Made by a program: the position numbers and the translations under genes. Below, piece by piece: positions 49,146 through 49,483 of a DNA stretch of 64,000 nt (positions are counted from its first letter, which is position 1; each line of letters opens with the position of its first letter). The notes below the pieces were generated by a model. The model ran no database searches. It saw nothing but the letters and a program-made list of their open reading frames with translations, and was not told the DNA's origin. The stretch comes from an uncultured Alphaproteobacteria bacterium (GTDB lineage: Bacteria > Pseudomonadota > Alphaproteobacteria > SP197), in contig CALSLK010000005.1 in the NCBI GenBank assembly GCA_943787175.1, positions 186,001-250,000 of the forward strand, written 5' to 3'.

Positions 49146-49174
49146 TTGACACATCCCGCGTTTCCCCATATCTC
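49146..49174 (+). promoter_or_regulatory. Promoter of the leu leader transcript
   Basis: A perfect -35 element TTGACA (49146-49151), 17-base spacer, and TATCTC (49169-49174). Transcription would begin about eight bases later, at or beside the ATG of the leader peptide (49182), giving a leaderless message. Confidence 0.6.
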
Positions 49175-49181
49175 GCATTCT

Positions 49182-49226
49182 ATGATCGCGAACCGGACCT
49201 TGGCCCTAGGCCTACTACTCGCCTGA
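49182..49226 (+). CDS. Candidate leucine leader peptide of leuA attenuation
   Basis: A 14-residue frame, MIANRTLALGLLLA, with five leucines in its last eight residues (TTG, three CTA, CTC). CTA is a rare leucine codon in such GC-rich genomes, so ribosome stalling under leucine shortage would be sensitive. A sigma-70-like promoter places the start of transcription at the ATG, so no ribosome site is expected. The 258 bases to leuA hold competing hairpins and a T-run. Too short for standard gene finders. The assignment is an inference from codon content, promoter and position. Confidence 0.6.
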   Translation: MIANRTLALGLLLA

Positions 49227-49333
49227 TCGGCGCCTCGCAGAGAGGTGCCGGCCGATTTGCCGTGTCCTCTCACTAAAATAGCGTTGTCGATCTCATGTTC
49301 CCGATCTTCCATCCCTTCCCCGCCCTGATTGCC

Positions 49334-49441
49334 GTAACGCCGGTTTCCCGTTACGAACCGTTTTGCTTTGACCGGCGACTAACGCGCGGGTCCGTCGTGC
49401 CGTGTGGCACCAGCGGGCCGGACTGAGACTGGTTTTTGTTT
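49334..49441 (+). terminator. Possible leuA attenuator region with competing hairpins
   Basis: Three mutually exclusive stems share sequence: GTAACG (49334-49339) with CGTTAC (49349-49354); CGCCGGT (49338-49344) with ACCGGCG (49371-49377); and CGGTT (49341-49345) with AACCG (49356-49360), followed by TTTTGCTTT. Further on, ACCAG (49410-49414) can pair with CTGGT (49429-49433) just before TTTTTGTTT (49433-49441), 43 bases short of leuA. A stable stem CGGCGCCTC / GAGGTGCCG also lies directly after the leader stop (49229-49251). The arrangement fits attenuation, but which pair acts as the terminator is not settled. Confidence 0.4.
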
Positions 49442-49483
49442 CAGCGCGCATCTGGCGCGTGATTGCATCTGAAGGAATTTGTT

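Follow-up and report, generated by a model that had tools for sequence, protein, structure and literature searches.

Enterobacterial leu leaders (Rfam Leu leader) carry rare leucine codons before leuA, and the principal previous survey of attenuators in proteobacteria is that of Vitreschak (2004); single leuA leaders of alphaproteobacteria may already have been published. A search of the open literature found no publication on tandem leucine leaders or on Rhodospirillales leuA leaders. The closest precedent for the locus described here is the actinobacterial leuA leader. In the LEU element, the leucine codons of the leader pair with the leuA Shine–Dalgarno sequence in a pseudoknot (Seliverstov 2005, PMC1262725), and that 2005 paper left open how the terminator-less actinobacterial leuA leaders function. 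LeuL1 of Streptomyces lividans is reported to be leaderless and without a typical Rho-independent terminator (PMC8079986). In Sinorhizobium meliloti, trpL is described as a 14-codon leader frame at the transcript 5′ end, within an attenuator that releases a small RNA (PMC7298713, PMC10117765). Tandem attenuators, with two short ORFs placed serially in one leader, are described for Salmonella mgtCBR (PMC3641672).

Here we describe the leader of a leuA gene in a stretch of 64,000 nucleotides (the window) from an alphaproteobacterial genome of 38 contigs. With the actinobacterial leaders it shares the leucine leader peptide, the position before leuA, the very probable leaderless start and the lack of a terminator, and the Corynebacterium leaders precede a LeuA of the same type. 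It differs in having two leaders where the actinobacterial systems are described with one, and the pairing of leucine codons with the leuA Shine–Dalgarno sequence that the LEU-element paper describes was not seen among the loci carrying the CGACTTA motif introduced below. S. meliloti trpL is likewise alphaproteobacterial, 14 codons long and, as is very probable here, leaderless, but it serves trp with a single leader, and no leuA counterpart of its terminator was found here. The mgtCBR leader resembles the window in its two serial short ORFs, whereas that leader serves a Mg2+ virulence operon and has other ORFs and other signals. With the enterobacterial leu leader the locus shares rare leucine codons, but neither the window nor any of 12 relatives matched an Rfam family at the gathering score.

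The leuA gene lies at 49484..51178 on the forward strand, with its ATG at 49484 and AAGGA at 49472-49476; its product scores 835 bits against TIGR00970, where the cutoff is 697, and is a 2-isopropylmalate synthase of that type. The closest named records for the window are metagenome-assembled genomes (MAGs) labelled Rhodospirillaceae or Alphaproteobacteria. For the comparative analysis, leuA upstream regions were fetched from 61 relatives, of which 27 gave a match, and from named genomes (80 loci), yielding 107 usable regions and a non-redundant set of 82. A second protein in the same genome (L002, G000:C15:26226-27167) has a 32% match to LeuA over residues 249-556.

The surroundings of leuA contain several further features. 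A 197-codon ORF at 48542-49135, without a Pfam match at E 0.001, ends directly before the leuA promoter, and upstream of leuA a DUF4160 gene (47795-48043) and a DUF2442 gene (48030-48443), a pair of unknown function assigned by Pfam, overlap each other. A gene for a PDDEXK_3 family protein (Pfam) at 51408-51791 on the reverse strand is convergent with leuA. An element of about 185 bases occurs in two copies about 5.1 kb apart, at 46091-46278 and 51194-51377; its ends are inverted repeats of about 27-32 bases, GGCACGCAGAGACGCAGAG...CTCTGCGTCTCTGCGTGCC, and by its layout it looks like a small mobile repeat.

Upstream of leuA, a predicted promoter at 49146..49174 (+) consists of TTGACA (49146-49151), a 17-base spacer and TATCTC (49169-49174). 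Seven bases separate TATCTC from the ATG (49182) of ORF1, a leucine leader frame MIANRTLALGLLLA at 49182..49226 (+; coding 49182-49223, stop TGA 49224-49226) that ends 257 bases before leuA. This promoter and the 14-codon frame with five leucine codons, three of them CTA, had been pointed out in a sequence-only reading; both are read directly from the DNA and both are conserved. Transcription is predicted to start at the ORF1 ATG or within about 2 bases of it. In the window the promoter pattern occurs once, and 28 of 100 shuffles also hold at least one match when one mismatch is allowed. A generic promoter scan of the window returned no site at TTGACA-17-TATCTC because the −10 element matches the consensus at only 3 of 6 positions. 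The pattern is thus weak on its own, and the case for it therefore rests on conservation.

That conservation is extensive. All 13 aligned family sequences, the window included, carry both TTGAC about 36 bases 5′ of the ORF1 ATG and the ATG itself. A promoter score of at least 8/12 at the leaderless distance was obtained for 36 of 45 ORF1 ATGs. Among 334 control ATGs from these regions 7 reached it, as did 1 of 36 ATGs of the second frame described below (ORF2); a Shine–Dalgarno-like sequence precedes just 1 of the 45 ORF1s. In all five genomes found afterwards with a model of the second element, TTGAC stands about 36 bases ahead of the ATG of ORF1. On this spacing evidence the ORF1 transcript is very probably leaderless, so the earlier proposal that transcription begins at the leader ATG gains support, with the 5′ end itself a prediction.

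The leucine codons of ORF1 in the window are TTG, CTA, CTA, CTA and CTC. CTA thus makes up 3 of 5, against 1.6% of leucine codons in window genes (37 ORFs, 16,994 codons), and over 11 non-redundant family sequences it accounts for 20 of 43 ORF1 leucine codons. An automatic rule requiring an ATG, 8-45 codons, at least 2 leucines in 9 and a promoter at the leaderless distance, set without the CGACTTA motif but chosen after the data had been seen, identified an ORF1 in 56 of the 82 non-redundant regions, whereas shuffles gave a mean of 3.1 (maximum 6) and the reverse strand gave 9. A stricter version (at least 4 leucines in 9) retained 36 regions against 0.35 in shuffles and none on the reverse strand. 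Outside the leucine stretch the ORF1 residues vary among relatives, with none seen by eye to be conserved there. Taken together, these comparisons indicate that ORF1 is a real, conserved leucine leader peptide before leuA, as had been proposed.

On the evidence of motif, reading frame and hairpin, a second leucine leader, overlooked in the sequence-only reading, is present between ORF1 and leuA. This frame, ORF2 (MFPIFHPFPALIAVTPVSRYEPFCFDRRLTRGSVVPCGTSGPD; 49295..49426, +), contains the heptamer CGACTAA at 49376..49382, read in frame as CGA-CTA (Arg-Leu; 49376-49381), and directly after this codon pair a hairpin, B, at 49389..49419 that begins 10 bases downstream of the first base of the nearest ORF2 leucine codon. 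In relatives, CGA CTT recurs in both ORFs with a hairpin after each. Of the 107 regions, 33 contain two copies of the heptamer CGACT(T/A)A and 27 contain one, where 0.046 per region is expected by chance. First elements (A) end like LRLTNPAL followed by a stop and a hairpin, and second elements (B) end like LRLIGGRRA followed by a stop and another hairpin. In all 37 first elements the CGA CTT pair is read in a frame that an ATG opens, against 2 and 2 in the other frames; for non-redundant second elements the count is 36 of 38, against 6 and 5.

These sets began as 46 A and 44 B loci and comprised 37 A and 37-38 B after exclusions. Removed by hand from A were L052, L056 and L057 (Reyranella, one short leader) and L040, in which the first motif match is another CGACTAC; removed from B were L058, L064 and L072, single leaders placed there by position, and L022 and L026, which were unclear. 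Near-duplicates were then also taken out of both sets.

Hairpin B covaries. Across six family sequences, 94.4% of its cells are paired, with 8 changed on both sides, compared with 32-44% in slid controls. In a wider group of 18 sequences, those of the 36 B sequences that MAFFT aligned cleanly, 97.2% of cells are paired, and both partners have changed in 18 of them; slid controls reach at most 64% paired. None of 500 shuffles, which do not keep relatedness, matched this covariation in either alignment. The amino acids of ORF2 gave no sign of purifying selection, substitutions in two relatives falling 9, 6 and 7 by codon position, and a Shine–Dalgarno sequence precedes the ORF2 ATG in only 6 of 36 cases.

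The arrangement varies across the set, and 15 of the 82 loci satisfy neither search rule. Kiloniella laminariae (L053) has both leaders in tandem, Nisaea (L079) the first one alone. In the subclade L011-L014, ORF1 retains just two leucine codons, and the frame found where ORF2 would be closes with TGATG across the leuA ATG, an overlap that suggests translational coupling. Locus L008 runs into the end of its contig and has no ORF1. In Reyranella and its relatives (L052, L056, L057, L058 and L064) the leader is single and very short, reading MLRLTTLRLIG or MLRLMKLRLIG, so that one ORF holds the Arg-Leu pair twice. Three loci (L068, L070 and L073) contain a further short frame ending RHLARL close to leuA, which in L073 overlaps an inverted repeat, GTCGCGCC...GGCGCGAC. 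Finally, L085, from a MAG labelled Ectothiorhodospiraceae, has a leaderless leader of the same kind, MSVFLNEVLRLLHPAS, before a 64% identical leuA; judged from these sequences, either transfer or a mislabelled bin would account for it.

The specificity of the second element was assessed by searching its covariance model against 142 genomes of the class. Nine matched at E ≤0.01, with one site each; all nine sites lie just upstream of leuA, and five of the nine genomes were new to the set. Run on 78 of 109 loci, the model found nine rhizobial leaders outside its training (E 7e-6 to 0.008), and it gave no match at E ≤1 in five actinobacterial loci. The window ORF2 itself scores weakly (8.6 bits, E 1.8), five other window sites scoring alike, and elsewhere in the genome there were five weak matches (E 2.7-9.4). 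ORF2 therefore joins the group only through its place, frame, codon pair and hairpin, and on these features the second element of the window is a divergent member. A search of the genome for further leader copies found none, the single other match being of 21 bases at E 0.61. At the level of sequence comparison, these results show that the leader arrangement is conserved and leuA-specific.

The first element also carries a hairpin. Hairpin A, GGCGCCTC-GCAGA-GAGGTGCC, at 49229..49249 (+), was identified by folding and begins 11 bases after the start of the last ORF1 leucine codon; relatives form stems there from bases that have changed, and in 27 of 37 loci the stop codon falls within the loop of the first-element hairpin. 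An alternative stem, A′ (49239..49271, +), in which 49239-49252 pairs with 49259-49271, uses the 3′ arm of hairpin A, so that the two overlap and compete in the window. The fold energies of the window are modestly unusual (z −1.26 for 49220-49450 and −2.93 for 49385-49445), and across loci the regions of hairpins A and B show no strong gain in stability over shuffles (mean z −0.79 and −1.19).

We consider the most probable reading, at roughly 0.6, to be that the leader holds two leucine sensors in series, that a stalled ribosome blocks the hairpins, and that the hairpins probably let Rho end transcription. Transcription would start at the AUG of ORF1. A ribosome footprint of the usual size would span a hairpin foot 10-11 bases downstream, so a ribosome awaiting leucyl-tRNA at the last leucine codons of ORF1 or ORF2 would cover the base of the adjacent hairpin. 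Each hairpin would then form only under ample leucine, once the ribosome has moved on, and its formation would lower leuA expression. The spacing of 11 bases for A and 10 for B fits a leucine sensor; the secondary structure is placed for a response to stalled ribosomes, and B covaries. Leucine regulation of leuA through stalled ribosomes is accordingly graded as likely from these sequence features. For the output, our guess is that the hairpins would let Rho terminate before leuA and that stalled ribosomes would prevent Rho from acting. Two observations prompt it: intrinsic terminators are not conserved, and the sequence separating the sensors is rich in C and poor in G. In 27 of 31 loci there is more C than G between the two elements, whereas the two bases are equal in number 5′ of the promoter. 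Such a stretch resembles Rho loading regions, which is weak evidence and proves nothing. Rho-dependent termination is thus, as a guess, the preferred output, with translational control as its main rival.

Under translational control, translation of the leader would alter a fold masking the ribosome-binding site of leuA, a mechanism proposed for the actinobacterial LEU element. The leuA type is the same, a leucine leader is present without a terminator, a Shine–Dalgarno sequence is kept by 37 of the 48 leuA genes checked, and in two rhizobial loci, L096 and L104, which are chosen cases, the leucine codons can pair with the leuA site at −19.3 and −22.8 kcal/mol. Among the CGACTTA loci, however, pairing with a locus's own leuA site was no better than with swapped partners (−10.15 vs −9.89 for A; −10.33 vs −10.52 for B), and the pairing of the LEU-element model was rejected for these loci. 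We regard this explanation as unlikely. A pairing of CGAC with a downstream GTCG, good by eye in several loci, was also set aside, as it occurs in 22 of 37 loci but in 19.7 on average in shuffles.

Classical attenuation, in which A and A′ are the terminator and antiterminator forms, or in which the stem before TTTTTGTTT terminates, is more doubtful still. The sequence-only reading had proposed leucine attenuation of leuA with overlapping stems and had named TTTTTGTTT (49434..49442, +) as the terminator tract. The competition between A and A′ does exist in the window and its near relatives: the A′ duplex has a z of −4.4 in the window, and the four of 9 family sequences with z under −2 (−4.4, −2.9, −2.3 and −2.3 in L001, L030, L047 and L005) all come from its genus. 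Clade-wide, however, A′ shows no signal (mean z +0.30, n = 37), so that the overlapping stems stand near the window only. Antiterminator-like pairing of the hairpin A and B 3′ arms with downstream sequence was rejected, as it lacks a clade-wide signal (mean z +0.30 to −0.14). At 49415-49435 a terminator scan reports a site, and the scan joins the U run to a stem of 7 pairs, of which 3 are G-C. This U run sits in the loop of a predicted CTGAGAC...GTTTCAG fold and not behind a strong terminator stem; a U tract follows neither A nor A′, and TTTTTGTTT was not seen by eye in 13 other family sequences. Intrinsic terminators, scored as a hairpin plus a U tract, occur at 15 of the 82 loci against 7.6 in shuffles, which is near chance, and were rejected as a general feature. 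The leader peptide of the attenuation proposal is conserved; its intrinsic terminator, with TTTTTGTTT in that role, is not supported.

That the leader peptide, or a short RNA made from the leader, might work in trans, as reported for the Sinorhizobium trp leader, is very unlikely: the probable leaderless start is shared with S. meliloti trpL (PMC7298713), but no conserved terminator would define a small RNA, and the ORF1 peptides vary beyond the leucine stretch. The notion that ORF1 is a chance frame is scarcely credible: short frames are common and the promoter alone is not rare, but the conservation tests, the CTA enrichment, the promoter spacing and the automatic rule refute it.

We return to the preferred reading of two leucine sensors in series with a probable Rho-dependent output. 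In its full form, a serial two-sensor leader with a leaderless first sensor, a shared CGA-CTT pair and hairpin, no terminator and a second sensor shared with rhizobia, the description is put forward tentatively, at somewhat less than even odds. It would offer a proteobacterial case in which two similarly laid-out sensors stand in one leader and can be mutated separately. Such a two-sensor leader would permit direct tests of the effect of the stalled ribosome, of whether the second sensor sharpens or widens the response, and of why the codon pair is retained, and it would extend leaderless leader peptides to a large alphaproteobacterial group.
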